From Lucinisca nassula (lineage: Eukaryota; Mollusca; Bivalvia; Lucinida; Lucinidae): 64,000 bases of DNA. How positions within the stretch are numbered: position 1 is the stretch's first letter; each line of letters opens with the position of its first letter. The notes under the pieces are model-generated. The model was not told where the DNA came from, made no database searches, and worked only from the letters and a program-made list of their open reading frames with translations. Of this stretch, positions 1,165-64,000 are shown in pieces. The position numbers and the translations under genes are program-made. The stretch is taken from assembly GCA_963580285.1 (NCBI GenBank), contig OY757011.1, positions 102,516,316-102,580,315 of the forward strand, in the 5' to 3' direction.

Positions 1165-3214
1165 TTAATGTTTCAACCAAACAGTACATTTATTTACAAA
1201 AGAACTCAAGGTAGTAGCATTCTTTATTTCAAGTGGGATACTGTTCCAGATCAAAGCACCTGAGTAGGACATGCTGTTTTTAAACAAATCGATTTTAGGT
1301 TTGGGTATCAAAAAGTTCCAATTGCTTATGGAACGTAAATTCGATATGGTGTCATCCATATTACATGACCTCATTTGAAACAAATCTGTCAGATATTCTG
1401 GTGCAATATTGTTAGCAACTTTATACATCACTTTGGCTTTTTGTAAAAATACACTTTCGGTAAAAGACAGGATATTTAATCTATCTCGAGCCACTTCAAG
1501 AGTTAGATATTCATTTCTTAATATTAACTTGCATGCCCGTCTTTGAAGTTTAGTATTTTTATTGATGTTAAAACAAGTAGAATTTCCCCAGATAACAGAA
1601 CAGTTATCGAAGTGGGGTCGGATATATGCATTATAAAAAAGTAATCTGTGCTCTATTGTTAAATATGATGAAATCTGTGATAAAAGCCATAAGTGAGAGG
1701 ATACTTTCTTCACAACCTGTAGGTATTGTGAATTCCAAATTAAATTTTCGTCTATATTGATCCCTAAAATTTTATCATTATTTACTACTTTAAGATCCAA
1801 GTCGTTATGTTTTAACATGAGAGATTTATCCTTTAAATTAAGATTTTTTCGCCGACTTGTAATGAGCATAACTTTAGTTTTTTTAGTGTTTAAAAGCATT
1901 CCATTCTCTTTACACCACTGCTTAAGCAAATTTAAAGATTTTTGTAGATTATTGTCCAGTGTTTGTTTGTCAGACTGCACATCATAAATGGTCGTATCGT
2001 CCGCATATAAGTCAGTGGCTGCGACTACATTTTGAAGTATCAGAGGCAAGTCATTGATGAAAATTAGGAAAAGGAGTGGACCTAGAATAGACCCCTGTGG
2101 GACACCACAAATGATGTCTTTACTGTCCGATTTAGTATTTTTAATTAACACTTGTTGTATTCGTTGTGTTAAGTATGATTTAAACCAAAGTAAACTATTT
2201 GAGTTACATTTATAAAGTGCAAGTTTTTGCAATAAAATGTCATGATCAACCAGATCAAAAGCTTTTCGGAAATCAACCATTACGCAACCTACTAGTTTTC
2301 CATCATTGACAGCTTTTAACCAAGAGTCAGTCATAAGAAGTAAAGCCGATTCAGTTGAATGTCCATTTCTAAAACCGCTTTGCGTTTGATGAAGTAGTCT
2401 ATGGTTATTTAGAAATGTCATAAACTTTATATGTACCCATTTTTCTATTATTTTGGAAATAGTAGGAAGCACTGAAATTGGCCTGTAATTATTTACATCA
2501 TCTTTTTGACCCGATTTGTGAATTGGACATATTTTTGCATTTTTCCAAACGGTCGGGAAGATGCTGTTTTGTAAGCTTTTATTTATTATATGAGTAATAC
2601 TTGAACATATTATGTCATGTGCTATATTCAATACCCGAGGTCCAATGCAGTCGAGACCTGTAGATTTTGTTACATCTAAGTTGAATAAGTATTTTCTAAC
2701 AAAGCTTTGGTTTATTTCTGGAATGCTGAATGAAATGCTCGACGACACTTTCGAATCAACATGGCTTTTAATTTGTTCAAAATTTGAGAACTGAATAGGT
2801 TCTTTTAGCTGCGAAGCAACACTGGCAAAATATTGGTTGAATTCATTTGCAACTTCAAAGTCACTAGATACAAATTCGTTGTTTATAGTTAAGCCAAATA
2901 TATTCTTTTTTGAGTCTGATTTTCCACCAGCACCTAGCTCCCTGAAAAGTTTCCAAATAGAACCTGGATCGTCTTTGCCCTCTTCAAGTTTAGCCTTATA
3001 CATTTCCTTTTTTGCTGGTTTAATCATTTCTGATACCTTGTTTCGAAAATATATATATTCATCTGTTTTACCATTAATTTTGTGTTTATTTCTTTCTTAA
3101 ATGTTATCTAATATTTCTGGCGAAATCCAGTCAGGTTGACGCAATCTTTTAACTCTATGTTGCACAACCGGTGCGTGCTTGTTCAATACCTCTAAAAATA
3201 ATGAGAAAAATAAT
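1165..3214 (-). pseudogene. Reverse transcriptase of CR1/jockey-like LINE, truncated, one internal stop
   Basis: An uninterrupted 620-codon frame runs from an ATG at 3025-3027 to 1165. It contains the ordered RT blocks: NYRPISVLP, SGFRNGHSTESAL, VDFRKAFDLVDH, GVPQGSILGPLLFLIFIND, and the catalytic LYADDTTIYD (YADD at 1996-2007, about residue 341). The thumb and the LINE C-terminal signature SYSGALIWNSIP follow. The same frame continues upstream of the ATG to the junction at 3214 (…FLEVLNKHAPVVQ…) with a single TAA at 3097-3099, so the ATG is not the ancestral start. The endonuclease is lost by 5' truncation. The RT core itself looks intact. It would have served target-primed reverse transcription. 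Host gene identity is excluded. Confidence 0.88.
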
Positions 3215-3924: not shown

Positions 3925-4265
3925 CGTATCTCGAAATTTCGACTTAGTATCTCGAATTTTCGACTTATTATCTCGAAATTTCGACTTACTAACTCGAAAT
4001 TTCGACTTAGTATCTCGACATTTCGACTTAGTATCTCGAAATTTCGACTTATTAACTCGAAATTTCGACTTATTATCTCGAAATTTCGACTTAGTATCTC
4101 GAAATTTCGACTTATTAACTCGAAATTTCGACTTAGTAACTCGAAATTTCGACTTATTAACTCGAAATTTCGACTTAGTATCTCGAAATTTCGACTTAAT
4201 AACTCGAAATTTCGACTTATTAACTCGAAATTTCGACTTAGTATCTCGAAATTTCGACTTATGAG
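3925..4265 (+). repeat. 21-bp tandem array A
   Basis: About 16 units of 21 bp. Each unit holds the perfect 12-bp palindrome TCGAAATTTCGA followed by a 9-bp spacer (CTTAGTATC, CTTATTAAC and similar). Because 21 is divisible by 3, long open frames of SKFRLIN-type repeats appear in several frames; these are by-products of the repeat. Confidence 0.95.
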
Positions 4266-5475: not shown

Positions 5476-5525
5476 CTGATGAGACAGAAAACCCTCTGTC
5501 TGATGAGACAGAAAACCCTCTGTCT
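5476..5525. repeat. 24-bp direct duplication
   Basis: CTGATGAGACAGAAAACCC with its CTCTGT extension occurs twice head-to-tail with a 24-bp period directly beside the SINE-A copy. No function is apparent. Confidence 0.85.
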
Positions 5526-5811: not shown

Positions 5812-6217
5812 GTAAGTCGAAATTTCGAGATACTAAGTCGAAATTTCGAGTTATTAAGTCGAAATTTCGAGATAGTATGTCGAAATTTCGAGTTACTAAG
5901 TCGAAATTTCGAGATATTAAGTCGAATTTTCGAGATACTAAGTCGAAATTTCGAGTTATTATGTCGAAATTTCGAGATAGTAAGTCGAAATTTCGAGTTA
6001 CTAAGTCGAAATTTCGAGATACTAAGTCGAAATTTCGAGTTAATAAGTCGAAATTTCAAGTTAATAAGTCGAAATTTCGACTTAACAAGTCGAAATTTCG
6101 AGTTATTATGTCGAAATTTCGAGATACTAAGTCGAATTTTCGAGTTAATAAGTCGAAATTTCGAGTTACTAAGTCGAAATTTCGAGATACTAAGTCGAAA
6201 TTTCGAGATACCTATCA
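5812..6217 (-). repeat. 21-bp tandem array B
   Basis: About 19 units of the same 21-bp repeat as array A, in inverse orientation. They are followed at 6237-6253 by GGCCCTAATGCTCTTTC, the inverse of the element-end motif. The inner boundary (TATAGGACTTAATATTTCG at 5796-5814) is the inverse of the inner boundary of array A (ATTAAGTCCTATA at 4268-4280). A and B therefore look like long terminal inverted repeats of an inner element. Confidence 0.9.
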
Positions 6218-6765: not shown

Positions 6766-6942
6766 ATGATTCGTTCTCGAAATGAGGCATCACTTCTGGT
6801 GCTAAATAGCAAAAATATCTAAACTCCATATTTAAACCGTGATGTTGTGGAAAGTTGGTTCTGAGTTGACCATAACAAGATTCCTGTTATGGCTAATCCC
6901 TATTCAGAGTTGAATGCACAGCGCAGATCACAGACTCAGTTT

Positions 6943-7262
6943 CGAGTTAGTATGTCAAAATTTCGGAACAGTAAGTCAAAATTTCGAGTTAGTATGTCGA
7001 AATTTCGAGATAGTAAGTCGAAATTTCGAGTTATTAAGTCGAAATTTCGAGATTATAAGTCATTTCGAGTTCCTAAGTCGAAATTTCGAGATACTAAGTC
7101 GAAATTTCGAGTTAGTATGTCGTAATTTCGAGTTACTAAGTCTGAATTTCGAGATATTAAGTCGAAATTTCGAGTTACTAAGTCGAAATTTCGAGATACT
7201 AAGTCGAAATTTCGAGTTATTAAGTCGAAATTTCGAGTTACTAGGTCGAAATATCGAGATAC
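6943..7262 (-). repeat. 21-bp tandem array C
   Basis: About 15 units of the 21-bp TCGAAATTTCGA repeat, with scattered substitutions, ending in the outer right inverted end of the 3.4-kb element. It is more diverged than arrays A and B. Confidence 0.9.
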
Positions 7263-10594: not shown

Positions 10595-10844
10595 ACACCT
10601 GATAGATCTTCACAAATGACAGGAACATCATTGAATTTAGAACACCATATACGAGAATTGTTCAAATATGAATGCAAGTAGAACGTTTTCTCACGCACTA
10701 ATGCGAAAATCACCTGGAAATAAATATCACAGCGTAGAAAAATATTTTACCTATACATTGACACCACACCTGTTAAAATCCGTCCACTTTAGCCATGTAT
10801 ATCGTTCGATAAACACTGTCTACTCGTGTATACTTATACAAAAC

Positions 10845-11835
10845 ATGGTTGGAAGAAGGTCAGAGTACGCCGTTGAAATACGGTCCTATATTAAGAATCG
10901 TTGTTTTCTTGGTATACGGTGCAAAGACATTTTTGATGAAATATGTTCGGTTTATGGGCATAATGAAATGTCTTTTTCGACCGTTTTTCGTTGGTGTAAG
11001 AAATTCAGCTGTGGGCTAGGCTCAACAGAAGATGCACCACATAATCGTCGGCCGAAAAGAGCAACATCTGCCAAGATGGTTGCTAGAGTGAAAGAAATAG
11101 TTGCTACCGATGTACGATACACCACTAGGCAAATAGCTAGTATGGTTGGCATCTCATTAGGAGCAGCTCATACAATTCTGAAACGGAATTTGAAAATGAG
11201 AAAGATCTGTGCTAGATGGATTCCCCATCTGTTGACAGATGAGCAGAAAAAAAAGTCACGCGTTCAGTGCGCCAAGAAGTTGCTTAAAAAGTTTCCAAAT
11301 TACAATGCACGGTCTTTCGCTAATGTCGTCACAGGTGACGAGACATGGGTTCACTTTTTTGAGCCAAAACGAAAGATTCAGAACAAAATATGGGCAACAA
11401 AGAATTGCAAAAGACCATGCATTGCAAAGCGGACCATGAGCGTCAAGAAGGTAATGTATGCCATATTCTTTTCAAATCAGGGCCCTGCTATTCAGGTTGC
11501 TGTGCCTAAAGGCAAATCTGTAAATGCGAAGTTTTACAAGATTAAAGTTCTTCGAAAATTGAAGAAATATTTCAAAGAACGAAGACCCGCAACTGGTTTG
11601 GCCAATGTCAGATTGCTACATGACAATGCGTCATCGCACAAGGCGTTCATTGTGCAAGACTATCTGAAGCAGGAAAAGGTTGTTGAACTCTCTCACTCCC
11701 CGTATTCCCCTGACCTTGCTCCGTGTGGCTTTTTTGTTCCCGCGGCTGAAAAAATACCTTTCTGGTCGAAAATTTGTACAGCGCAAACACCTCGGTTCTG
11801 CAATATTCCAGTGCCTTCAGAGTATCCGTTGTTAT
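10845..11835 (+). pseudogene. Mariner-family transposase, third catalytic Asp lost, frameshifted
   Basis: From the ATG at 10845 the frame encodes a paired-like N-terminal HTH region (MVGRRSEYAVEIRSYIKNRC), a second HTH (RQIASMVGISLGAAHTILKR), the linker HLLTDEQK, and the catalytic blocks TGDETWVHFFEP (first Asp codon 11337-11339) and LLHDNASSHKA (second Asp 11622-11624). The third Asp, expected 35 residues on in SPDLAPCDFF, is GGC Gly at 11727-11729. Just after it a short indel in a T run moves the signature LFPRLKKYLSGRKF into another frame, continuing to about 11835 (IFQCLQSI). The last 30-40 residues are missing. An upstream in-frame ATG at 10668 adds an unrelated 59-residue lead and is not the start. 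The protein would be catalytically dead. Confidence 0.88.
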
Positions 11836-12450
11836 TTTGTGACGTCATCAAAATATGTGCACCGGCCCGTCCGCCATTTTGTTTCCCTAGCTTTTGTACG
11901 GTGCAGTCCGCATAGGTACTTGAAGTTGATATTTACGCTATCAGAATATAGTCTCTACGATCTTCGAAATCGTTACATAAGGAAAATTTTAAAAATAAAT
12001 GAGAAACAACTTCAAACTCCTGTGGTGCAGTACGGTGACATGGCGCACCTAAAGTTTTGATATCTAGAGCTAAGCCACCACAAAAAAATTCACAATCAAA
12101 AGCATTACAACACTTCCCTATCAACTAGCAGCAATGAAAATTGGCCTCTGAATTTTTTTAACAGACAGGGCAAAAATACCATGAAAAGAGATGTATACCC
12201 CGCTTTAATCCATTTCCCTGACAAACAGTGCAGGCCCAGATCAGACGCCACAGAACGCGGCGTCTATAATCAGGGTCTACACGTTTGCATTTTCAGCCAA
12301 TTTCCAAATAGTTTTTGAAGAAAACACAAAACCTGACACCTCTAAATTTGTGAGTTTTTTAAACTGCCTAAAATTATAACTTACCAAGGAGAAGAAACTC
12401 AGAAACTGACTGAAGAAGGCACAGGCAAGCAAAGCTGCCATCTACCCCAT
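11836..12450. other. Intergenic stretch with one fold-back motif
   Basis: No gene is seen. 12228-12290 is a fold-back of the dispersed GATCAGACGCC family: a CCCAGATCAGACGCC arm, then GGCGTCTATAATCAGGG. Confidence 0.5.
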
Positions 12451-37439: not shown

Positions 37440-38790
37440 GAAAATAAGAGAAAATCGTCAAAACATCTTCTTGTATGAAACCAGAAGGCCAAGGCCTTTG
37501 ATATTTGGTATGAAACTTCATCTAGTTGACCTCTAACAAGATGGCTCAAATTATAGCCCTGGGGCCAAAAATGCCCCCCCCCCCCACACACACACATACA
37601 CACACCCCAGGGCCCACTGGTTTTACATAGGCATATATAGGGAAACCCTTTAAAAATTTTCTTGTGTGAAACCAGAAGGGGCAGGTCTTTGATATTTGGT
37701 ATGAAGCTTCATCTAGTGGACCTCTAGCAAGATTGCTCAAATTATAGCCCTGGGGCCAGAAAAATGCCCCAACACCAGGGCCTACTGGTTTTACATAGGC
37801 TTATATCTATGGAAAACCTTAAAAAATCTTCTTGTCTGAAACCAGAAGCCCCAGGTATGAAGCTTCATCTAGTGGACCTCTACCAAGATTGTTCAAATTA
37901 TAGCCATGGGGCCAAAAATGCCCCTTCACCAAGGCTTAATGGTTTTAAATAGGCTTATATAGAGAAAACCTTTAAAAAATTTCTTGTTTGAAACCATAAG
38001 GCCCAGGTCTTTAGTATTTGATATAAATCTTCATCTAATGGATCTCCACTATGATTGCTCAAATTATAGCCCTGGGGCCAGAATAATGCCCCCACACCAG
38101 GGCCTACTGGTTTTTGGCTAAGCTTATGTAAGAAAACCTTCAAAAATCTTCTTGTCCGATACCAGAAGGCCCAGGTATTTGATATTTGGTATTAAGCTTC
38201 ATCTAGTGGACCTCTAACCAAGATTGTTCAAATTATAGCCCTGGGGCCAAAAATGCCCCCACACCAGGGCCTACTGGTTTTACATAGGCTTATATAGGGA
38301 AAACCTTTAAAAAATCTTCTTGCCTGAAACCAGAATGCCCAGGTCTTTGATATTTTTATGAAGCTTCATCTAGTGGACCTCTACCAAGATTATTCAAATT
38401 ATTGCCCTGGGACCAATAATGCCCCCTCACCAGGGCCTTCTGGCTTTACTTTGGCTATAAATATAGGGAAAACCTTTAAAAAATCTTCTTGTCTGAAACC
38501 AGAAGGCCCAGGTCTTTGGTATGAAGCTTCATCTAGTGGACATCTACCAAGATTGTTCAAATTATAGCCCTTGGGCCAAAAATGCCTCCATGCCGGGGCC
38601 ACTGATTTTACATAGCCTTATATAGGGAAAACCTGTTAGAATCTTCATGACTGAAACAGAAGGCCAAGGACTTTGATATGTAGTATGGAGCTTCATCGAA
38701 TGAACGTCTACGAAGCTTGTTCAAATAACAGCCCTCGGGCCAAAAATGGCCCAGCCCCAGGGTGCACATATTTTATATAGGCTTATATAG
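37440..38790. repeat. 165-bp tandem array, block 1
   Basis: About eight units of 160-175 bp with the words CAGGTCTTTGATATTTGG, AAGCTTCATCTAGTGGACC, TCAAATTATAGCCCTGGGGC, CTACTGGTTTTACATAGGC and AAATCTTCTTGTCTGAAACC. The units have small indels and no stable coding frame. The same unit makes up block 2 at 41590-42590 and a scrap at 42890-43020. Confidence 0.92.
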
Positions 38791-38961
38791 GCAGTCTGAA
38801 GTTTTAACCGGATTTCCCCAGAATTTTGCCTTGGTCTTATCAGAGGCAATTATCATTAAAATAACAGTTTCATGTGTCGGAGTGCCATCAACCATCACAA
38901 TTTATTATGGTCTGTAGATGTTGACTGGTGCTTTACAACTCTCACTTCAGAAAAAAGTTCA

Positions 38962-40899: not shown

Positions 40900-40980
40900 T
40901 CTTGTTCTGTAAAATGGTTATCCTTTGGAAGCAAGGAATACACCGCAGAAGTTAAATGTATGGCATGAACAAGTTTTTCT

Positions 40981-41028
40981 TGGCCCAGACTAGCTAGTTT
41001 CGACCAATAAGCCCTCATAAGTGACCTC
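40981..41028 (-). ncRNA. Hammerhead ribozyme, degenerate copy
   Basis: Minus strand: stem I side GGTCA; core CTTATGA (41015-41021), where CTGATGA is required; a weakened stem II; GAAA (40998-41001); short stem III and loop C-TAGCTA-G; and cleavage triplet GTC (40988-40990). The G-to-T change in the invariant core should abolish cleavage. Confidence 0.65.
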
Positions 41029-41216
41029 AACAGTTTCAAAATTCCACAATGAAAGGACAAGAAAATATAAACTACACTATGGTGAAGGGCTGGGAGACTT
41101 TTTACGGCTGCCACACATTCCCTTTAAATTAGCTGGTGAGTTAGATATGTCTGACAAAAGGGTTATCTTTTGGAAGCAAGAAAAACACCGTAGCAGGAAA
41201 AAGTATGGAGTGTTCT

Positions 41217-41262
41217 GGGCCAGACTAGCTAGTTTCGGCGAAATAGGCCTCATCAGTGATCC
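41217..41262 (-). ncRNA. Hammerhead ribozyme, type I, core intact
   Basis: Minus strand, 5' to 3': stem I GGATCA (41257-41262); core CTGATGA (41250-41256); stem II GGC/GCC around a 7-base loop; GAAA (41233-41236); minimal stem III C-TAGCTA-G; cleavage triplet GTC (41223-41225), with the cut expected after its C; and stem I partner TGGCCC (41217-41222) with one A-C mismatch and one wobble. All invariant core bases are present. The very short stem III is usual in metazoan retroelement hammerheads. Confidence 0.78.
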
Positions 41263-41312
41263 TCATATATGTTCAAACATCCTCAATGAAATCATTGATC
41301 CCATTTGACTTT

Positions 41313-41589: not shown

Positions 41590-42590
41590 TTAAAAAATCT
41601 TCTCTTATAATAAACCGCATGGCCCAGGTCTTTGATATTTGGTATGAAGCTTCATCTAGTGGACCTCTACCAAGACTGTTCAAATTATAGCCCTGGGGCC
41701 AAAAATGCCCCCGTCCCGGGGGCCTTTGGTTTTACATCGGCTTATATAGGGAAAATCTTTAAAAATCTTCTTCTCCCAGGTCTTTGATATTTGGTGTGAA
41801 GCTTCATCTAGTGGACCTCTATCAAGATTATACAAATTATAGCCCTAGGGCCATAAATGTCCCCGCCCCGGGATCCTTTGTTTTTTTTCATAGGCTTCCA
41901 CTTCTATTTTAATATAGGGAAAATAAAAAAACAAGTCCCAGGGCTTTGATATTTGGTATGAAGCTTCACCTAGTGGACCTCTACCAAGATTGTTCAATTT
42001 ATAGCCCTGGGGCCAAAAATGCCCCCGTCCCGGGGCCCTTTGGTTTTACAATAGACTGATATTGGGAAAATCTTTAAAAATCTCTTTCTCTGAAACTGCA
42101 AGGCCCAGTTCTTTGATATTTGATGTTAAGCTTCATCTGGTGGACCTCTATTACTATTGTTAAAATTATATGCCTTCAGCGCTAAAAATGCCCCCACCTG
42201 TGGGTATTTTGGTTTTTACATTGGGTTATACAGGGAAAATCTTAAAAATCTTCTTCGAAACTGCGTGGCCCAGGTCTTTGATATTTGGTGTGTAGCTAAA
42301 TCTAATGGACCTCTACCAAGATTGTTCAAATTATAGCCCTTGGGCCGAAAATGCCCCTGCCCCGGGGCCCTTCAGTTTTATATTGACTTATATAAGGAAA
42401 TTAAAAAAAATCTTCTACTCTGAAACCGCAAGGCCCAGGTCTTTGGTATTTGATGTGTAGCATTATCTAGTGGACCTCTATCAAAATTGTTGAAATTATA
42501 GCCCTAGGAAATAGAAGTCAACGCCATGAAAACGTTTGAAAAGCTTCTTGTTTGAAAGCAGAAGGCCCAGGTCTTTCACATTTTGTATGA
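41590..42590. repeat. 165-bp tandem array, block 2
   Basis: About six units of the block 1 family (CAGGTCTTTGATATTTGG, GTGGACCTCTACCAAGA, TTATAGCCCTGGGGCC), more diverged, interrupted on the right by SINE-A. No coding frame. Confidence 0.9.
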
Positions 42591-47797: not shown

Positions 47798-47879
47798 CTA
47801 CAGTATATAATTGCAACACTATGACCTTGTCGGGAACAGTCCTTCGTGGGCACACACTGTCCGTGTTGGGGACATTGCA
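47798..47879 (+). repeat. Inverted-repeat arm flanking the minisatellite, left
   Basis: CTACAGTATATAATTGCAAC … ATGACCTTGTCGGGAACAGT … ACTGTCCGTGTTGGGGACAT is repeated in inverse at 61254-61342, beyond the 42-bp array. The words GGAACAGTCC and GTCCGTGTTGGGGA resemble the inverse of the array unit. Confidence 0.85.
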
Positions 47880-48727
47880 TTTTTGTTGAATAGTTGGCGT
47901 GTCATACTAAGTTATTTATAAGACTTTCAAGGGGCGTAACAAATCAAAACAAACAAAAAAATCAACACTCTGCATATTTTGCAATAGTTTGGTTAATCAC
48001 TTTAATTTTGATTAAAGGATTTCAATTAAAAAATACATAAAAATATGCCTAACATAAAGTTTTATGAATCTATTCCAGTTTGTATTGGTGACAAAATATT
48101 TGCTGGTAATAAACCTTTTCATAGTTGAAATTATTTTGATACTAATACTAAGTTGCGGTCCTCCGCGAAAGAAGCCACCTAACTCCCAATCGGCTAGGCT
48201 AACTGATAACTGTCAAGCAGACAGGAGTCAGCATATTGGCAGCCTATGGAAAAGACCTACAACTAATCCCAGCTGGCGAACTGGGGTATCCCCTTATGTG
48301 CCCTTGGCGCCCTGTTACCTTAAAAACATTCGTCAAGGCATCTATTTATTTTGCATCAGGACAAAGAAGAAGAAGAACGTTTAATTCGAAGGGATGTTTT
48401 TTATTGTATCGTGATCCCAAATGAATATCAAAGGAGTCAGTAAAATGTCCATTTAAAGAAGCTAATTAAGAATCAATTAGTCCTTACAAAAGAAACATTC
48501 TGACTAAAAGACAAAAATTATTCTATTGTGGAAGCAGGCTACAAACCGCATACAAATCCATGCACTTTCCACTTGTCTGGAGCAAAATAATCCGTAATCA
48601 AAATTTGCCGCATGACGTTAAATTAAACTGGAAATTTCTTCTGACGTAACGTCAACTTTCAACGTCATTTTCCACGTTTTACGCTGATACTCGTAACCGC
48701 TGATACTCGTTTTCAGCATTTCTTTTA
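47880..48727. other. Spacer before hammerhead
   Basis: No gene is supported. It contains repeated GCTGATACTCGT words at 48681-48713. Confidence 0.45.
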
Positions 48728-48773
48728 GGGCTACTGATGAGGCCTTGATGGCCGAAACAAGCTTGTCTGGCCC
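48728..48773 (+). ncRNA. Hammerhead ribozyme, type I, canonical
   Basis: 5' to 3': stem I GGGCTA (48728-48733); core CTGATGA (48734-48740); stem II GGCC/GGCC around TTGAT (48741-48753); GAAA (48754-48757); minimal stem III C-AAGCTT-G; cleavage triplet GTC (48765-48767), with the cut expected between 48767 and 48768; and stem I partner TGGCCC (48768-48773), pairing all six positions with one U-G wobble. Every invariant base is present. Metazoan hammerheads of this form belong to Penelope-like or retrozyme retroelements. It is a single copy here, with no tandem partner seen nearby. Confidence 0.88.
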
Positions 48774-48782
48774 AAACAACAA

Positions 48783-48924
48783 ATGGATTCTGCTATTTTC
48801 GTTTTTGAATGCGTTCATGGTTCTCAAAGGGCATCCCTTGTAGCCTTATTTAATACACATGATTTAAAGCAAACTAGACATTTGAACAATTTCCTGCAAT
48901 TGTTTTTAGCGATTGGTGGATTCT
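48783..48924 (+). pseudogene. Possible LINE C-terminal scrap
   Basis: The plus-strand frame FVFECVHGSQRASLVALFNT, then HDLKQTRHLNNFLQL resembles the C-terminal region of jockey/CR1-type ORFs (…FKCxxGxAPxYLxxLF…H…TR). The match is by general pattern only and could be accidental. It lies between the hammerhead and the 42-bp array. Confidence 0.25.
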
Positions 48925-51900
48925 ATACATGGACTCCTTTAATAGATTGTTCCCAGCAAGGACAATTTATATAGGTATGTTTAATAGACTGTTCCCACCA
49001 AGGACACTTTCTGTAGGTATGTTTTATAGACTGTTCCAAGCACAGACACTTCTGTAGGTATGTTTATAGACTGTTCCCAGCCCGGACAATTATATAGGTA
49101 TGTTAAATAGACTGTTCCCACCAAGGACACTTTTCGTAGTTATGGTTAGTAGACATTTTCCAGCACGGACACTTTCTAAAGCTATCATTAAAAGACTGGT
49201 CCCAGCATGGACACTTTCTGTAGGTATATTTAAAAGACTGTTCCCACCACGGACACTTTCTGTATGTAGTACGCTTCATAGTCTGTTCCAAGCACGGACA
49301 CTTTCTGTAGCTATGTTTAATAGACTGTTCCCACCAAGGACACTTTCTGTAGGTATGTTTAATAGATTGTACCCAGCACGGACATTTCTGTAGATATGGT
49401 TAATAGACTGTTCACAGCAAGGACACTTTCTGAAGGTATTTTAATAGATTGTTTGCAGCACGGATACTTCTGTTGGTATGTTTAATAGACTGTCTCCAAC
49501 AAGGACACTTTCTATACGTATGTTTAATAAGATGTTCCCACCAAGCACACTTTCTGTAGCTATGTTTAATAGACTGTTCAAAGCATGGACACTTACTGTT
49601 GCTATGTTTAATAGACTATTCTCACCAAGAACACTTTCTGTAGCTATGTTTAATAGAATGTTCCCAGCAAGGACACTTTCTGTAGCCCTTTTTAACAGAC
49701 TGTTCCAACCAAGGACACTTCATGTAGCTATGTTTAATAGACTGTTCCCAGCATGGACACTTTTTGTAGCTATGTTTAATAGGCTGTTTCCAGCACGGAC
49801 ACTTCTGTATATATGTTTAATAGACTGTTTCCAACAAGGACTCTTTCTATACGTATGTTTAATAAACTGTTCCCACCAAGGACACTTTCTGTAGCTATGT
49901 TTAATAGAATGTCCCCACCAAGGACACTTTCTGTAGCCGTTTTTAACAGACTGTTCCCACCAAGGACACTTCATGTAGCTATGTTTAATAAACTGTTCCC
50001 AGCAAGGACACTTTTTGTAGCTATGTTTAATAGAATGTTCCAACCAAGGACACTTTCTGATGCCATTTTTAACAGACTGTTCCCACCAAGGACACTTCAT
50101 GTAGCTATGTTTAAAAGACTGTTCCCAGCAAGGACACTTTTTGTAGCTATGTTTAATAGGCTGTTTCCAGCACGGACACTTCTGTATATATGTTTAATAG
50201 ACTGTTTCCAACAAGGACTCTTTCTATACGTATGTTTAATAAACTGTTCCCACCAAGGACACTTTCTGTAGCTATGTTTAATAGAATGTCCCCACCAAGG
50301 ACACTTTCTGTAGCCGTTTTTAACAGACTGTTCCCACCAAGGACACTTCATGTAGCTATGTTTAATAGACTGTTCCCAGCATGGACACTTTTTGTAGCTA
50401 TGTTTAATAGAATGTTCCCACCAAGGACACTTTCTGAAGCCATTTTTAACAGATTGTTCCCACCAAGGACACTTCATGTAGCAATGTTTAATAGACTGTT
50501 CCCAGCATGGACACTTTTTGTAGCTATGTTTAATAGGCTGTTTCCAGCAAGGACACTTTCTGTAGCTATGTTTAATAGAATGTCCCCACTAAGGACACTT
50601 TCTGTAGCCGTTTTTAACAGACTGTTCCTACAAAGGACACTTCATGTAGCTATGTTTAATAGACTGTTCCTAGCATGGACACTTTTTGTAGCTATGTTTA
50701 ATAGGCTGTTTCCAGAAACTTCTGTATATATGTTTAATAGGCTGTTTCCAACAAGGACTCTTTCTATACGTATGTTTAATAAACTGTTCCCACCAAGGAC
50801 ACTTTCTGTAGCTATGTTTAATAGAATGTCCCCACCAAGGACACTTTCTGTAGCCGTTTTTAATAGACTGTTCCCACCAAGGACACTTCATGTAGCTATG
50901 TTTAATAGAATGTTCCCAGCATGGACACTTTTTGTAGCTATGTTTAATAGAATGTTCCCACCAAGGACACTTTCTGTAGCCATTTTTAACAGACTGTTCC
51001 CACCAAGGACACTTCATGTAGCTATGTTTAATAGACTGTTCCCAGCATGGACACTTTTTGTAGCTATGTTTAATAGGCTGTTTCCAGCACAGACACTTCT
51101 GTATATATGTTTAATAGACTGTTTCCAACAAGAACTCTTTCTATACGTATGTTTAATAAAATGTTCCCACCAAGGACACTTTCTGTAGCTATGTTTAATA
51201 GAATGTCCCCACCAAGGACACTTTCTGTAGCCGTTTTTAACAGACTGTTCCCACCAAGGACATTTCATGTAGCTATGTTTAATAGAATGTTCCCAGCATG
51301 GACACTTTCTGTAGCTATGTTTAATAGAATGTTCCCAGCAAGGACACTTTCTGTAGCCATTTTTAACAGACTGTTCCCACCAAGGACACTTCATGTAGCT
51401 ATGTTTAATAGACCGTTCCCAGCATGGACACTTTTTGTAGCTATGTTTAATAGGCTGTTTCCAGCACGGACACTTCTGTATATATGTTTAATAGACTGTT
51501 TCCAACAAGGACTCTTTCTATACGTATGTTTAATAAACTGTTCCCACCAAGGACACTTTCTGTAGCTATGTTTAATAGAATAATCCCACCAAGGACACTT
51601 TCTGTAGCCGTTTTTAACAGATTGTTCCCACCAATGACACTTCATGTAGCTTTGTTTAATAGAATGTTCCCAGCATGGACACTTTTTGTAGCTATGTTTA
51701 ATAGAATGTTCCCACCAAGGACTCTTTCTGTAGCCATTTTTAACAGACTGTTCCCACCAAGGACACTTCATGTAGCTATGTTCAATAAACTGTTCCCAGC
51801 AAGGACACTTTTTGTAGCTATGTTTAATAGAATGTTCCAACCAAGGACACTTTCTGATGCCATTTTTAACAGACTGTTCCCACCAAGGACACTTCATGTA

Positions 51901-54900
51901 GCTATGTTTAAAAGACTGTTCCCAGCAAGGACACTTTTTGTAGCTATGTTTAATAGGCTGTTTCCAGCACGGACACTTCTGTATATATGTTTAATAGACT
52001 GTTTCCAACAAAGACTCTTTCTATACGTATGTTTAATAAACTGTTCCCACCAAGGACACTTTCTGTAGCTATGTTTAATAGAATGTCCCCACCAAGGACA
52101 CTTTCTGTAGCCGTTTTTAACAGACTGTTCCCACCAAGGACACTTCATGTAGCTATGTTTAATAGACTGTTCCCAGCATGGACACTTTTTGTAGCTATGT
52201 TTAATAGAATGTTCCCACCAAGGACACTTTCTGAAGCCATTTTTAACAGATTGTTCCCACCAAGGACACTTCATGTAGCAATGTTTAATAGACTGTTCCC
52301 AGCATGGACACTTTTTGTAGCTATGTTTAATAGGCTGTTTCCAGCACGGACACTTCTGTATATATGTTTAATAGACTGTTTCCAACAAGGACTCTTTCTT
52401 TACGTATGTTTAATAAACTGTTCCCACCAAGGACACTTTCTGTAGCTATGTTTAATAGAATGTCCCCACTAAGGACACTTTCTGTAGCCGTTTTTAACAG
52501 ACTGTTCCTACAAAGGACACTTCATGTAGCTATGTTTAATAGACTGTTCCTAGCATGGACACTTTTTGTAGCTATGTTTAATAGGCTGTTTCCAGAAACT
52601 TCTGTATATATGTTTAATAGGCTGTTTCCAACAAGGACTCTTTCTATACGTATGTTTAATAAACTGTTCCCACCAAGGACACTTTCTGTAGCTATGTTTA
52701 ATAGAATGTCCCCACCAAGGACACTTTCTGTAGCCGTTTTTAATAGACTGTTCCCACCAAGGACACTTCATGTAGCTATGTTTAATAGAATGTTCCCAGC
52801 ATGGACACTTTTTGTAGCTATGTTTAATAGAATGTTCCCACCAAGGACACTTTCTGTAGCCATTTTTAACAGACTGTTCCCACCAAGGACACTTCATGTA
52901 GCTATGTTTAATAGACTGTTCCCAGCATGGACACTTTTTGTAGCTATGTTTAATAGGCTGTTTCCAGCACGGACACTTCTGTATATATGTTTAATAGACT
53001 GTTTCCAACAAGGACTCTTTCTATACGTATGTTTAATAAACTGTTCCCACCAAGGACACTTTCTGTAGCTATGTTTAATAGAATGTCCCCACCAAGGACA
53101 CTTTCTGTAGCCGTTTTTAACAGACTGTTCCCACCAAGGACATTTCATGTAGCTATGTTTAATAGAATGTTCCCAGCATGGACACTTTCTGTAGCTATGT
53201 TTAATAGAATGTTCCCAGCAAGGACACTTTCTGTAGCCATTTTTAACAGACTGTTCCCACCAAGGACACTTCATGTAGCTATGTTTAATAGACCGTTCCC
53301 AGCATGGACACTTTTTGTAGCTATGTTTAATAGGCTGTTTCCAGCACGGACACTTCTGTATATATGTTTAATAGACTGTTTCCAACAAGGACTCTTTCTA
53401 TACGTATGTTTAATAAACTGTTCCCACCAAGGACACTTTCTGTAGCTATGTTTAATAGAATAATCCCACCAATGACACTTTCTGTAGCCGTTTTTAACAG
53501 ATTGTTCCCACCAAGGACACTTCATGTAGCTTTGTTTAATAGAATGTTCCCAGCATGGACACTTTTTGTAGCTATGTTTAATAGAATGTTCCCACCAAGG
53601 ACACTTTCTGTAGCCATTTTTAACAGACTGTTCCCACCAAGGACACTTCATGTAGCTATGTTAAATAGACTGTTCCCAGCATGGACACTTTTTGTAGCTA
53701 TGTTTAATAGGCTGTTTCCAGCACGGACACTTCTGTATATATGTTTAATAGATTGTTTTCAACAAGGACTCTTTCTATACGTATGTTTAATAAACTGTTC
53801 CCACCAAGGACACTTTCTGTAGCTATGTTTAATAGAATAATCCCACCAAGGACACTTCATGTAGCTATGTTAAATAGACTGTTCCCAGCATGGACACTTT
53901 TTGTAGCTATGTTTAATAGGCTGTTTCCAGCACGGACACTTCTGTATATATGTTTAATAGACTGTTTCCAACAAGGACTCTTTCTATACGTATGTTTAAT
54001 AAACTGTTCCCACCAAGGACACTTTCTGTAGCTATGTTTAATAGAATGTCCACACCAAGGACACTTTCTGTAGCCATTTTAACAGACTGTTCCCACCAAG
54101 GACACTTCATGTAGCTATGTTTAATACACTGTTCCCAGCATGGACACTTTTTGTAGCTATGTTTAATAGGCTGTTTCCAGCACGGACACTTCTGTATATA
54201 TGTTTAATAGACTGTTTCCAACAAGGACTCTTCCTTTACGTATGTTTAATAAACTGTTCCCACCAAGGACACTTTCTGTAGCTATGTTTAATAGGCTGTT
54301 TCCAGCACGGACACTTCTGTATATATGTTTAATAGACTGTTTCCAACAAGGACTCTTTCTTTACGTATGTTTAATAAACTGTTCCCACCAAGGACACTTT
54401 CTGTAGCTATGTTTAATAGAATGTCCCCACCAAGGACACTTTCTGTAGCCGTTTTTAACAGACTGTTCCCACCAAGGACACTTCATGTAGCTATGTTTAA
54501 TAAACTGTTCCCAGCAATGACACTTTTTGTAGCTATGTTTAATAGAATGTTCCAACCAAGGACACTTTCTGAAGCCATTCTTAACAGACTGTTCCAACCA
54601 AGGACACTTCATGTAGCTATGTTTAATAGACAGTTCCCAGCATGGACACTTTTTGTAGCTATGTTTAATAGGCTGTTTCCAGCACGGACACTTCTGTATA
54701 TATGTTTAATAGACTGTTCCCAGCAAGGACTCTTTCTATACGTATGTTTAATAAACTGTTCCCACCAAGGACACTTTATGTAGCTATGTTTAATAGAATG
54801 TCCCCACCAAGGACACTTTCTGTAGCCGTTTTTAACAGACTGTTCCCACCAAGGACACTTCATGTAGCTATGTTTAATAGAATGTTCCCAGCATGGACAC

Positions 54901-57900
54901 TTTTCGTAGCTATGTTTAATAGAATGTCCCCACCAAGGACACTTTTTGTAGCCGTTTTAACAGACTGTTCCCACCAAGGACACTTCATGTAGCTATGTTT
55001 AATAGACTGTTCCCAGCATGGACACTTTTTGTAGCTATGTTTAATAGGCTGTTTCCAGCACGGACACTTCTGTATATACGTTTAATAGACTGTTTCCAAC
55101 AAGGACTCTTTCTAGACGTATGTTTAATAAACTGTTCCCACCAAGGACACTTTCTGTAGCTATATTTAATAGAATAATCCCACCAACGACACTTTCTGTA
55201 GCCGTTTTTAACAGACTGTTCCCACCAAGGACACTTCATGTAGCTTTGTTTAATAGAATGTTCCCAGCATGGACACTTTTTGTAGCTATGTTTAATAGAA
55301 TGTTCCCACTAAGGACACTTTCTGTAGCCATTTTTAACAGACTGTTCCCACCAAGGACACTTCATGTAGCTATGTTTAATAGACTGTTCCCAGCATGGAC
55401 ACTTTTTGTAGCTATGTTTAATAGGCTGTTTCCAGCACGGACACTTCTGTATATATATGTTTAATAGACTGTTTCCAACAAGGACTCTTTCTATACGTAT
55501 GTTTAATAAACTGTTCCCACCAAGGACACTTTCTGTAGCTATGTTTAATAGAATGATCCCAACAAGGACACTTTCTGTAGCCGTTTTTAACAGACTGTTC
55601 CCACCAAGGACACGTCATGTAGCTATGTTTAATAGAATGTTCCCAGCATTGACACTTTTTGTAGCTATGTTTAATAGAATGTTCCCACTAAGGACACTTT
55701 CTGTAGCCATTTTTAACAGACTGTTCCCACCAAGGACACTTCATGTAGCAATGTTTAATAGACTGTTCCCAGCATGGACACTTTTTGTAGCTATGTTTAA
55801 TAGGCTGTTTCCAGCACGGACACTTCTGTATATATGTTTAATAGACTGTTTCCAACAAGGACTCTTTCTATACGTATGTTTAATAAACTGTTCCCACCAA
55901 GGACACTTTCTGTAGCTATGTTTAATAGAATGTCCCCACCAAGGACACTTTCTGTAGCCATTTTAACAGATTGTTCCCACCAAGGACACTTCATGTAGCT
56001 ATGTTTAATAGACTGTTCCCAACATGGACACTTTTTGTAGCTATGTTTAATAGGCTGTTTCCAGCACGGACACTTCTGTATATATGTTTAATAGACTGTT
56101 TCCAACAAGGACTCTTTCTTTACGTATGTTTAATAAACTGTTCCCACCAAGGACACTTTCTGTAGCTATGTTTAATAGGCTGTTTCCAGCACGGACACTT
56201 CTGTATATATGTTTAATAGACTGTTTCCAACAAGGACTCTTTCTTTACGTATGTTTAATAAACTGTTCCCACCAAGGACACTTTCTGTAGCTATGTTTAA
56301 TAGAATGTCCCCACCAAGGACACTTTCTGTAGCCGTTTTTTACAGACTGTTCCCACCAAGGACACTTTCTGAAGCCATTCTTAACAGACTGTTCCCACCA
56401 AGGACACTTCATGTAGCTATGTTTAAAAGACTGTTCCCAGCAAGGACACTTCTGTATATATGTTTAATAGACTGTTTCCAACAAGGACTCTTTCTTTACG
56501 TATGTTTAATAAACTGTTCCCACCAAGGACACTTTCTGTAGCTATGTTTAATAGAATGTCCCCACCAAGGACACTTTCTGTAGCCGTTTTTAACAGACTG
56601 TTCCCACCAAGGACACTTCATGTAGCTATGTTTAATAAACTGTTCCCAGCAAGGACACTTTTTGTAGCTATGTTTATTAGAATGTTCCAACCAAGGACAC
56701 TTTCTGAAGCCAGTCTTAACAGACTGTTCCCACCAAGGACACTTCATGTAGCTATGTTTAAAAGACTGTTCCCAGCAAGGACACTTTTTGTAGCTATGTT
56801 TAATAGGCTGTTTCCAGCACGGACACTTCTGTATATATGTTTAAATAGACTGTTTCCAACAAGGACTCTTTCTATACGTATGTTTAATAAACTGTTCCCA
56901 CCAAGGACACTTTCTGTAGCTATGTTTAATAGAATGTCCCCACCAAGGACACTTTCTGTAGCCGTTTTTAACAGACTGTTCCCACCAAGGACACTTCATG
57001 TAGCTATGTTTAATAGACTGTTCCCAGCATGGACACTTTTTGTAGCTATGTTTAATAGAATGTTCCCACCAAGGACACTTTCTGAAGCCATTTTTAACAG
57101 ATTGTTCCCACCAAGGACACTTCATGTAGCTATGTTTAAATAGACTGTTCCCAGCATTGACACTTTTTGTGGCTATGTTTAATAGGCTGTTTCCAGCACG
57201 GACACTTCTGTATATATGTTTAATAGACTGTTTCCAACAAGGACTCTTTCTTTACGTATGTTTAATAAACTGTTCCCACCAAGGACACTTTATGTAGCTA
57301 TGTTTAATAGAATGTCCCCACCAAGGACACTTTCTGTAGCCGTTTTTAACAGACTGTTCACACAAAGGACACTTCATGTAGCTATGTTTAATAGACTGTT
57401 CCCAGCATGGACACTTTTTGTAGCTATGTTTAATAGGCTGTTTCCAGACACTTCTGAATATATGTTTAATAGACTGTTTCCAACAAGGACTCTTTCTATA
57501 CGTATGTTTAATAAACTGTTCCCACCAAGGTCACTTTCTGTAGCTATGTTTAATAGAATGTCCTAACCAAGGACACTTTCTGTAGCCGTTTTTAACAGAC
57601 TGTTCCCACCAAGGACACTTCATGTAGCTATGTTTAATAAACTGTTCCCAGCAAGGACACTTTTTGTAGCTATGTTTATTAGAATGTTCCAACCAAGGAC
57701 ACTTTCTGAAGCCATTCTTAACAGACTGTTCGCACCAAGGACACTTCATGTAGCTATGTTTAATAGACTGTTCCCAGCATGGACACTTTTTGTAGCTATG
57801 TTAAATAGGCTGTTTCCAGCACGGACACTTCTGTATATACGTTTAATAGACTGTTTCCAACAAGGACTCTTTCTATACGTATGTTTAATAAACTGTTCCC

Positions 57901-60480
57901 ACCAAGGACACTTTATGTAGCTATGTTTAATAGAATGTCCCCACCAAGGACACTTTCTGTAGCCGTTTTTAACAGACTGTTCACACAAAGGACACTTCAT
58001 GTAGCTATGTTTAATAGACTGTTCCCAGCATGGACACTTTTTGTAGCTATGTTTAATAGGCTGTTTCCAGACACTTCTGAATATATGTTTAATAGACTGT
58101 TTCCAACAAGGACTCTTTCTATACGTATGTTTAATAAACTGTTCCCACCAAGGTCACTTTCTGTAGCTATGTTTAATAGAATGTCCTAACCAAGGACACT
58201 TTCTGTAGCCGTTTTTAACAGACTGTTCCCACCAAGGACACTTCATGTAGCTATGTTTAATAAACTGTTCCCAGCAAGGACACTTTTTGTAGCTATGTTT
58301 ATTAGAATGTTCCAACCAAGGACACTTTCTGAAGCCATTCTTAACAGACTGTTCGCACCAAGGACACTTCATGTAGCTATGTTTAATAGACTGTTCCCAG
58401 CATGGACACTTTTTGTAGCTATGTTTAATAGGCTGTTTCCAGCACGGACACTTCTGTATATACGTTTAATAGACTGTTTCCAACAAGGACTCTTTCTATA
58501 CGTATGTTTAATAAACTGTTCCCACCAAGGACACTTTCTGTAGCTATGTTTAATAGAATGTCCCCACCAAGGACACTTTCTGTAGCCGTTTAAACAGACT
58601 GTTCCCACAAAGAACACTTCATGTAGCTATGTTTAATAGACTGTTCCCAGCATGGACACTTTTTGTAGATATGTTTAATAGGCTGTTTCCAGCACGGACA
58701 CTTCTGTATATATGTTTAATAGACTGTTTCCAACAAGGACTCTTTCTATACGTATGTTTAATAAACTTTCCCACCAAGGACACTTTCTGTAGCTATGTTT
58801 AATAGAATGTCCCCACCAAGGACACTTTCTGTAGCCGTTTTTAACAGACTGTTCCCACCAAGGACATTTCATGTAGCTATGTTTAATAGAATGTTCCCAG
58901 CATGGACACTTTCTGTAGCTATGTTTAATAGAATGTTCCCACCAAGGACACTTTCTGTAGGCATTTTTAACAGACTGTTCCCACCAAGGACACTTCATGT
59001 AGCTATGTTTAATAGACTGTTCCCAGCATGGGCACTTTTTGTAGCTATGTTTAATAGGCTGTTTCCAGCACGGACACTTCTGTATATATGTTTAATAGAC
59101 TGTTTCCAACAAGGACTCTTTCTATACGTATGTTTAATAAACTTTCCCACCAAGGACACTTTCTGTAGCTATGTTTAATAGAATGTCCCCACCAAGGACA
59201 CTTTCTGTAGCCGTTTTTAACAGACTGTTCCCACCAAGGACATTTCATGTAGCTATGTTTAATAGAATGTTCCCAGCATGGACACTTTCTGTAGCTATGT
59301 TTAATAGAATGTTCCCACCAAGGACACTTTCTGTAGGCATTTTTAACAGACTGTTCCCACCAAGGACACTTCATGTAGCTATGTTTAATAGACTGTTCCC
59401 AGCATGGGCACTTTTTGTAGCTATGTTTAATAGGCTGTTTCCAGCACGGACACTTCTGTATATATGTTTAATAGACTGTTTCCAACAAGGACTCTTTCTA
59501 GACGTATGTTTAATAAACTGTTCCCACCAAGGACACCTTCTGTAGCTATATTTAATAGAATAATCCCACCAAGGACACTTTCTGTAGCCGTTTTAAACAG
59601 ACTGTTCCCACCAAGGACACTTCATGTAGCTTTGTTTAATAGAATGTTCCCAGCATGGACACTTTTTGTAGCTATGTTTAATAGAATGTTCCCACCAAGG
59701 ACACTTTCTGTAGCCATTTTTAACAGACTGTTCCCACCAAGGACACTTCATGTAGCTATGTTTAATAGACTGTTCCCAGCATGGACACTTTTTGTAGCTA
59801 TGTTTAATAGGCTGTTTCCAGCACGGACACTTCTGTATATATATGTTTAATAGACTGTTTCCAACAAGGACTCTTTCTATACGTATGTTTAATAAACTGT
59901 TCCCACCAAGGACACTTTCTGTAGCTATGTTCCCAGCATGGACACTTTTTGTAGCTATGTTTAATAGGCTGTTTCCAGCACCGACACTTCTGTATATATG
60001 TTTAATAGACTGTTTCCAACAAGGACTCTTTCTATACGTATGTTTAATAAACTGTTCCCACCAAGGACACTTTCTGTAGCTATGTTTAATAGAATGTCCC
60101 CACCAAGGACACTTTCTGTAGCCGTTTTTAATAGAATGTCCCCACCAAGGACACTTTCTGTAATTATGTTTAATAGACTGTTCCCGACAAGGATACTTCC
60201 TGTAGCTATGAATATTAGTCTCTTCGCAGCACGGACACTTCTGAAGGTATGTTCCATAGACGGACGGACACTCCTGTAGGTATGTTTAATAGACTGTTCC
60301 CACCTAGGACACTGTCTGAACCTATGTCAGGTAGACTGTTCCCATCACGGAAACTTTCTGGAGCTATGATTTATAGACTGTTCCCAGCACGTACACTTCT
60401 GTAGGTATGTTTAATAGACTGTTCCCAGCACGGACAGTTTCTGAAGCTCTGTTCAATACACTGTTCCCACCAAAGACACT
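48925..60480 (+). repeat. 11.5-kb minisatellite, 42-bp unit with higher-order repeats
   Basis: About 275 units of 42 bp, e.g. GGACACTTTCTGTAGCTATG followed by TTTAATAGACTGTTCCCACC and AA. Since 42 is 3x14, open frames of 14-residue repeats appear on both strands (MFNRLFPARTLSVA; KCPWWEQSIKHSYR). A regular 41-bp variant (CACGGACACTTCTGTATATA) shifts the frame and closes them about every 377 bp, so the longest frame is 332 codons and coding is unlikely. Blocks of 377 bp (eight 42-mers plus one 41-mer) recur. Larger duplications of 1880 bp (50530-51960 to 52410-53840), 623 bp (57450 to 58073) and 376 bp (58675 to 59051) are visible. Edge units (48960-49480, 60150-60480) are the most diverged. 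Confidence 0.96.
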
Positions 60481-61089
60481 TGTTTCATATGGCGGGGGCT
60501 GGCAAAACGTATATGTGACGGGACACCACGAGGGAACCTCGAATCTATGTCCACTTGTTGGGCATTAACGCAAAGGAAATTCTAAGATACTTAGAATCCT
60601 TTGCAATATTTATATGGAATAAGTCTAATATTTATAAACAACACTGGTTACATAATTTTACAAAGACAAACTTAAAGGGACAGTTGACTCGCAATCTATT
60701 CCACTTAAGTTAAGACAGAATGAAAATTAGTCTGGGCCCAATTAAATTTCTGTCTTAATACAAGTGGAATACACTTGAATCACACTTGAATTACACATGA
60801 AGTACACACACTCATTCACACCCTCACATACTTAACATAATGTTCTTTCTCCCTTCCTGTTGATGATAAGGACCTGATGAGTGTTTATGGCACCATAATG
60901 TTTTATATAAACTTTATATTAACCAGTATATTCACGGAAAGGACTGTTTCACCAACCAGTTTTTGCCTCTGTGTTATACCGTGGCGATTACATCTATAGC
61001 TGCTCACCGCCGAATAAAATGTAGTAACAGGGGTGGGGGACACATAAACCCCTTTACATCATTCTATACTCATCATCCATATCATCACT
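60481..61089. other. Spacer after the array
   Basis: No gene is seen. Two ACACTTGAAT(C/T)ACAC words lie at 60770-60800. Confidence 0.45.
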
Positions 61090-63109: not shown

Positions 63110-63930
63110 AGATGGCCGCCGTTACTAAAAATAGCAAAAAAACAACTAAATCGACTTTTCTCTAGAACCGCATGGTATAATTGGCTGATTTTTGGTATTG
63201 AGCTTCGATGGGCACTAGGTTCTCAAATTTATATACAAAAACTCTATAGTGAAATTAGGTCACGGTGACCTACTTTATATTTACGACATATATTTTGTTC
63301 AAATGGCATCTCCTCGAAAACCAATGCTCAGATTTTGACCAAACTTGATCTGAAGCATTCTGATATCAGCATTTCTCAGATTTGTTCAAATGGTTCCGCC
63401 TCGATGCATAAGTAGGTCATAATGGCCGGCAATGTGAAAAACTTCAAACTGCTAATTCTCGTGAACTGGTGAAAGGGATTTGATCAGACATGGTCAGAAG
63501 CATCCATGCATCAACTAGTATTAGATATATTCAAATGGTTCCACTCCGATGCATAAGTAGGTCAAAATGGTCGATATCGGGAAAACTTCAAACCGCTAAT
63601 TCTCGTGAATGGATGAACAGAATTTGATTAAACATGGTCAGAAGCATCCTTACATCAACGTGCATCAGATTTATTCGAATGGTTCCACTCCAATGCATAA
63701 GTAGGTCATAATGGCTGACATCGTGAAAAACATCAAATTGCTGATTCTCATTATGGATGAACGGAATTTGATCAAACTTGGTCAGAAAGATCCTTACATC
63801 AACCTGTATCAGATTTATTCAAATGGTTCCACTCCAATGCATAACTAGGTGATAATGGCCGACATCATGAAAAATTTTGAACTGCTGATTCTCTTAAATG
63901 GATGAACAGAATTGGGTCAAACGTGGAACC
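63110..63930 (-). repeat. Right arm of the 1.85-kb inverted repeat
   Basis: Inverse of 62085-62915: CATAAGTAGGTCATAATGGC, AAACTTCAAACTGCTAATTC, GAATTTGATCAAACTTGGTC and AGAAGCATCCTTACATCAAC in at least four tandem units, diverged from the left arm. Confidence 0.88.
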
Positions 63931-63931
63931 G

Positions 63932-64000
63932 TCTATTAAACATACCTACAGCAGTGTCCATCGTAGGAAGAGAAAGTGTCCCTGTCGGGAATAGTCTATT
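63932..64000 (-). repeat. 42-bp minisatellite units in inverted orientation
   Basis: GTCTATTAAACATACCTACA, then AGTGTCC, GAAAGTGTCC and GGGAATAGTCTATT are the inverse of the 48925-60480 unit. The window ends inside it. Confidence 0.85.

Follow-up and report, generated by a model that had tools for sequence, protein, structure and literature searches.

Hammerhead sequences in the window

The window analyzed here, a 64-kb stretch of a lucinid clam genome taken as a whole, carries a sequence-intact type I hammerhead ribozyme (copy A) at 48728-48773 on the plus strand. To its right, TRF delimits a 42-bp tandem array of about 277 copies at 48938-60481 (no strand assigned), a neighbor that we judge to lie outside the element to which the ribozyme belongs. 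The window also holds reverse transcriptase (RT), endonuclease, and RNase H frames together with a mariner-like transposase, and a 424-residue open frame at 10641-11912 (+) has matches to Mos1/mariner transposase domains. One RT frame, at 1165-3093 (-), shares 97% identity along its full length with a protein (P0001) named from a MAG of Candidatus Thiodiazotropha taylori, and other matches of this frame are named from a gammaproteobacterial symbiont of Lucinoma myriamae. Thiodiazotropha and the Lucinoma myriamae symbiont are both symbionts of lucinid clams. Because these hosts are lucinid clams and RT proteins like this one are eukaryotic retroelement proteins, the P0001-type protein in the symbiont MAG is probably host clam DNA that was binned with the symbiont in public data.

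Copy A is documented by direct reading, by a motif scanner, by Markov simulation, and by a covariance model of three copies that is described below. Read directly, its 5′ half consists of GGGCTA (48728-48733), CTGATGA (48734-48740), GGCC (48741-48744), and TTGAT (48745-48749), and its 3′ half of GGCC (48750-48753), GAAA (48754-48757), CAAGCTTG (48758-48765), TC (48766-48767), and TGGCCC (48768-48773). Stems I and II are fully paired, with six pairs in stem I, one of them G-U, and four pairs in stem II. Stem III is made of A15.1-U16.1 followed by a C-G and an A-U pair, with AGCU closing it; the scanner counted a third stem III pair that was not accepted because it would leave a two-base loop. 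The stem III and loop segment CAAGCTTG at 48758-48765 (+) is palindromic and, with the flanking A and T, would give a 10-pair helix between two copies. By eye, stem I terminates in an A.A mismatch and some weak pairs, a point that bears on the loop I - loop II tertiary contacts by which the canonical form is told from the minimal one. The sequence has the CUGANGA, GAAA, and UH core and the three stems of the type I class, stem I being open-ended, and neither core nor pairing shows a defect. The initial annotation had described a complete type I hammerhead with a six-pair stem I, a four-pair stem II, and a minimal stem III, and all of these elements are present on direct reading. Its cut position also agrees with ours, which is predicted to fall between 48767 and 48768. 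The hammerhead at 48728-48773 is confirmed as real in sequence.

Copy A goes beyond what chance would be expected to give. It is the sole complete type I motif that a type I/III scanner found on both strands of the 64 kb. A type I search with relaxed demands (CTGANGA, minimum stem lengths of 4/3/2 pairs) was run on both strands of 600 windows simulated by a first-order Markov process that keeps the same dinucleotide steps, and it returned four matches; none of the simulated windows gave one with the CTGATGA core, one with 6/4/2 stems, or an equal of copy A. The bare pattern CTGATGA..GAAA..TH is not rare when taken alone, with 7 rows found and 5.9 expected. One further candidate was rejected. 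At 5476-5525, the 24-bp unit CTGATGAGACAGAAAACCCTCTGT occurs twice and offers a hammerhead-like core and a stem II, with GAAA not in place. As an observation in its own right, the same stretch can be described as a 24-bp unit, beginning with CTGATGAGACAGA, that is present twice. The window also contains three arrays of a 21-bp unit built around the palindrome TCGAAATTTCGA (3926-4261, 5813-6211, and 6940-7262) for which TRF reports the consensus in both orientations.

Ribozyme patterns were also searched for in sequence collections, which say little when they miss because viral_contigs, genome_contigs, and the plasmid collection were not built to hold clam DNA. In viral_contigs, the DNA patterns matched 0, 10, and 2 contigs by pattern, and none of the 12 matches is a hammerhead: ten represent one near-identical stretch that by eye is without stem I and has only the two outer pairs of stem II, and in the remaining two the matched site lacks a hammerhead core. 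Both scans of genome_contigs gave 0 matches, and the plasmid collection held no match to the ribozyme.

Related copies, predicted folds, and flanks

Two relatives of copy A lie in direct repeat on the minus strand. Copy B1 (41212-41265), first seen through a core pattern search (minus strand, 41256), combines an intact core with a single mismatch in each of stems I and II. In copy B2 (40977-41030), found by reading onward, the core is broken (CTTATGA), stem I carries two mismatches and stem II one, and the copy is clearly dead. The two are 235 bp apart, and 111 of 146 aligned positions (76%) are identical; the unit between their predicted cut sites (40988-41222, minus strand) is 235 bp long with 41% GC. 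Alignments that include the ribozyme match copy A at 94 of 144 positions with B1 and at 81 of 123 with B2. Within the ribozyme itself, copy A differs from B2 at 11 of 46 positions, one of them in the core, and from B1 at 9 of 46, distributed as 0 of 13 in the core, 3 of 12 in stem I, 1 of 8 in stem II, 3 of 5 in loop II, and 2 of 8 in stem III and its loop. A covariance model made from A, B1, and B2 scores them at 78.8, 76.6, and 68.8 bits, which is high by construction given that the three copies are the model's own input; what carries information is the drop from them to the next of the 18 rows, at 12.1 bits. From these comparisons, the kinship of the three ribozymes is clear.

The stem III palindrome is CAAGCTTG in copy A and CTAGCTAG in B1 and B2, so that one stem III pair is changed on both sides, from A-U to U-A, and stem III pairs and is palindromic in 3 of 3 copies. 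With three sequences and a single pair, this covariation amounts to a hint and not to statistical proof (165 of 500 shuffles do as well). The double change suggests, without proving, that the pairing of stem III has been kept.

The initial annotation had named a search with the Rfam hammerhead models as a check on the motif and the lack of a match as its refutation, a test that the motif fails at the curated threshold. Rfam release 15 gave 0 matches in the 64-kb window at the gathering score, a criterion of the library and not a biological one. When a 273-base slice was searched under relaxed settings, RF00008 reached 19.0 bits at copy A (cut-off 48.5, E 0.13) with an alignment in the type III register and not the real one. 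Copy B1 reached 14.5 bits with RF00008 and 15.9 bits with RF03152, likewise far under the cut-offs. Because the Rfam models miss the sister copies too, the miss at copy A is read as low sensitivity. The Rfam hammerhead models thus pass over this subfamily at the gathering score, and counts based on Rfam only may be low for such genomes.

Folding was predicted with nearest-neighbor models, which ignore the hammerhead core and Mg2+, so that all of the fold figures are pointers only. In its lowest-energy fold, the 46-mer of copy A keeps stems I and II, and some of the core is taken up in pairs with the stem III region; the hammerhead fold is less stable by 1.8 kcal/mol (-13.9 versus -15.7) and has a probability of 0.015. 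Stems I and II of the monomer are predicted at 0.93 and 0.85 without flanks, at 0.18 and 0.20 with 60 nt, and at 0.01 and 0.04 with 100 nt, and copy A is accordingly predicted to misfold within its genomic flanks. The homodimer of copy A forms 30 of the 30 double-hammerhead pairs and no other, at -43.3 kcal/mol versus -31.4 for two monomers. When the eight stem III bases were shuffled, 8 of 300 variants kept the double-hammerhead fold, and the dimer gain averaged 6.7 kcal/mol versus 11.9 for copy A, the best shuffle reaching 15.8. Dimers of B1 and of B2 keep the 10-pair stem III and form none of the expected stem I and stem II pairs (10 of 30 pairs each). As a circle, the B unit is 60% paired, which is not more than its shuffles (z -0.58 versus 200 shuffles); a highly self-paired unit RNA is a usual, not a strict, trait of retrozymes, and this decayed unit does not have it.

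Outside the ribozymes, likeness between the loci is limited. The sequence after copy A (48774-48869, plus strand) is weakly like the sequence downstream of B1 and is probably the rest of a solo retrozyme copy whose right end is uncertain. With the ribozyme left out, the downstream flank of copy A is equaled by 3 of 1000 shuffles against B1 and by 134 of 1000 against B2, and the upstream flank shows no likeness to either (760 and 538 of 1000 shuffles as good against B1 and B2). These comparisons support a flank kinship that would be confined to the downstream side and to B1. Neither locus has a convincing target-site duplication; only words of 6-7 bases are shared, which we judge, without a computed control, to be no better than chance. 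In metazoan non-LTR retrozymes, such duplications exceed 4 bp where they occur. The stretch 48728-48869 is not covered by any ORF of 90 aa or more. An ORF at 41021-41308 (+) overlaps B1 on the opposite strand and has no Pfam match. Separately, two arrays with a 165-168-bp unit and a similar consensus occur at 37603-38791 and 41775-42508, the latter about 0.5 kb from the decayed dimer.

A retrozyme reading and its rivals

We explain copy A as the type I hammerhead of a solo metazoan non-LTR retrozyme, a single and probably truncated unit, in a lucinid clam genome, and we give this reading a probability of roughly three in four. As part of the same explanation, we read the minus-strand locus at 40.98-41.27 kb as an old dimer of the same retrozyme family with decayed ribozymes. 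The two tandem relatives, 235 bp apart on the opposite strand, argue for a retrozyme rather than a Penelope-like element (PLE). Further points in favor are the intact motif at copy A, which exceeds chance, the three related copies at two places, the core unchanged between copy A and B1, the stem III pair changed on both sides, and the predicted double-hammerhead fold of the homodimer. The B1/B2 locus is a 235-bp dimer within the 150-450 bp range of tandem retrozyme repeats, and copy A is a single copy; the non-coding B unit is below 50% GC, and the family is dispersed in the 64 kb, with one of its two loci on each strand. Against the retrozyme reading stand the lack of a tandem partner at copy A, the weak flank likeness, the lack of a convincing target-site duplication, the unfavorable monomer fold, the ordinary self-pairing of the decayed B unit, the thin basis of the stem III covariation, the Rfam miss at threshold, and the lack of a true relative in viral_contigs, genome_contigs, or the plasmid collection.

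From this reading, we infer cleavage, circular RNA, and a mobile life cycle for the copy A family. Tandem units of source elements would be transcribed into RNA, which each hammerhead would cleave immediately 3′ of GUC. The unit-length RNAs would then be circularized by a host ligase, and the circles would be copied by the reverse transcriptase of another element and reinserted. Copy A would have retained its intact ribozyme with the tandem partner absent, and its palindromic stem III could let two copies join as a double hammerhead. Lucinid clams are probably to be added to the animals with retrozyme-type hammerheads. An intact copy beside decayed ones, with the double change in the palindromic stem III, makes monomer versus dimer cleavage directly testable.

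The initial annotation had placed this tiny-stem III hammerhead with the kind found in metazoan retrozymes and Penelope-like elements, bivalves included, and we keep the first half of that assignment. For the second half, copy A would be the minimal hammerhead of a PLE, a pseudo-LTR leftover whose coding part has been lost. PLEs are described as carrying minimal type I hammerheads in tandem or partly tandem copies (PMC6155905, PMC11167929) and as coexisting with retrozymes in mussels (PMC7229834), and their ribozymes share with copy A the type I form, the small size, and the location within retroelement repeats. However, helix III is usually absent from PLE hammerheads according to PMC6155905 and PMC11167929, whereas each of the three copies here possesses a stem III, and a palindromic one. 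No GIY-YIG domain and no PLE frame appeared in 29 scanned of 117 ORFs of at least 90 aa, a scan that broken or shorter pieces could escape, and with a period of 235 bp a coding part would not fit between B1 and B2. Because PLE hammerheads are usually without helix III and no GIY-YIG domain was found in the 29 of 117 ORFs, a PLE is the weaker choice, and we consider this origin unlikely.

Less likely again is the view of copy A as a fortuitous match or an inactive relic in which the letters fit and the RNA does not cut. The lack of an Rfam match at threshold, the unfavorable fold of the monomer, and the state of B2 would all agree with it. A chance match is difficult to reconcile with the 0 of 600 simulated windows that reach copy A and with the existence of related copies, and a relic would not be expected to be free of any core or pairing defect, as copy A is.

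The neighboring 42-bp array invites a different interpretation, one that the initial annotation had raised as a coupling of ribozyme and minisatellite. Copy A would be a working processing signal of the array, such that rightward transcripts cut at 48767/48768 get a defined 5′ end. The orientation of copy A is right for this, its core is intact, and only 164 bp separate it from the array start (TRF, 48938). Yet the ribozyme shows no sequence link to the 42-bp unit (equaled by 332 of 500 shuffles), TRF finds no 42-bp array at the B1/B2 locus, and copy A is predicted to misfold in its genomic flanks. The upstream flank of copy A has no likeness to the 42-bp unit either (435 of 500 shuffles as good), and the spacer bears at most a weak likeness to that unit. 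A kinship of spacer and array was tried and rejected: the segment 48774-48893 looked alike at first (0 of 500 shuffles as good), which did not hold with the whole spacer (48774-48937), where the score is equaled by 42 of 3000 shuffles and by 13 of 594 genomic tiles and the array HMM gives 2.2 bits (E 8.6). The coupling finds no support in these comparisons, a processing role seems very improbable, and we judge the array to be a chance neighbor of copy A. Most far-fetched of all is the capture of a solo retrozyme hammerhead as an RNA processing signal of the minisatellite, acting in trans on or with further members of its family through a double hammerhead on the palindromic stem III, which if true would give array transcripts a ribozyme-made 5′ end.

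Pieces like the array unit were also seen on the opposite strand. One, at 63905-64000 (-) (HMM E 2e-7), may be the beginning of an inverted 42-bp array at the right edge of the window. The other, at 47806-47890 (-) (E 0.003), is a decayed array-like piece about 0.84 kb upstream of copy A.

Comparison with known systems

The kind of hammerhead represented by copy A is already well described, and its host group is one for which we found no report of ribozymes in the literature searched, a body of work that leaves most subscription journals outside. The same literature, with the same scope, yielded nothing that joins hammerhead ribozyme, Crassostrea, and satellite DNA. Among library families, Rfam RF00008 (Hammerhead_3) and RF03152 (RAGATH-1-hammerhead) are of the same catalytic core class as copy A and differ from this subfamily in their best scores (19.0 bits for copy A and 15.9 bits for B1) and in the type III fit of RF00008.

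The closest comparison is with the metazoan non-LTR retrozymes of mussel and coral (Cervera and de la Pena 2020, PMC7229834), made here by text. These elements are described there as having type I hammerheads, repeats of 150-450 bp, and GC below 50%, and as being expressed as circular RNA. About 5000 type I hammerhead copies are given for Mytilus galloprovincialis, and PLEs are proposed as strong candidates for mobilizing retrozymes. Invertebrate hammerheads are characterized in the same source by a two-pair helix III with a tetraloop cap, a feature that copy A shares along with its type I form, and the mussel ribozymes are said to lack the greater part of the nucleotides that would make loop 1 - loop 2 contacts. 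Further points in common are the short length of the tandem unit, 235 bp at the B1/B2 locus and a reported 150-450 bp in retrozymes, a GC content below 50%, a bivalve host, and non-LTR reverse transcriptase frames in the same window. Compared by text, the differences are that copy A is single, that no target-site duplication was found, and that the decayed unit is not unusually self-paired; at 235 bp, the unit is also shorter than the 350-390 bp of the mussel retrozymes (PMC7229834).

In stem III, the resemblance extends to hammerheads of other repeats. For Aedes and others, the legend of Figure S8 of PMC3088659 notes palindromic stem III sequences by which dimers would gain a stem of 10 bp. 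The stem III of copy A, on comparison by text only, is stronger in the monomer than the single pair of the axolotl HHR_Amex1 (PMC7229834). The palindrome that would give a 10-bp dimer helix is a feature that copy A has in common with the repeat-type hammerheads (PMC3088659) and with the newt and axolotl satellite hammerheads (PMC7229834).
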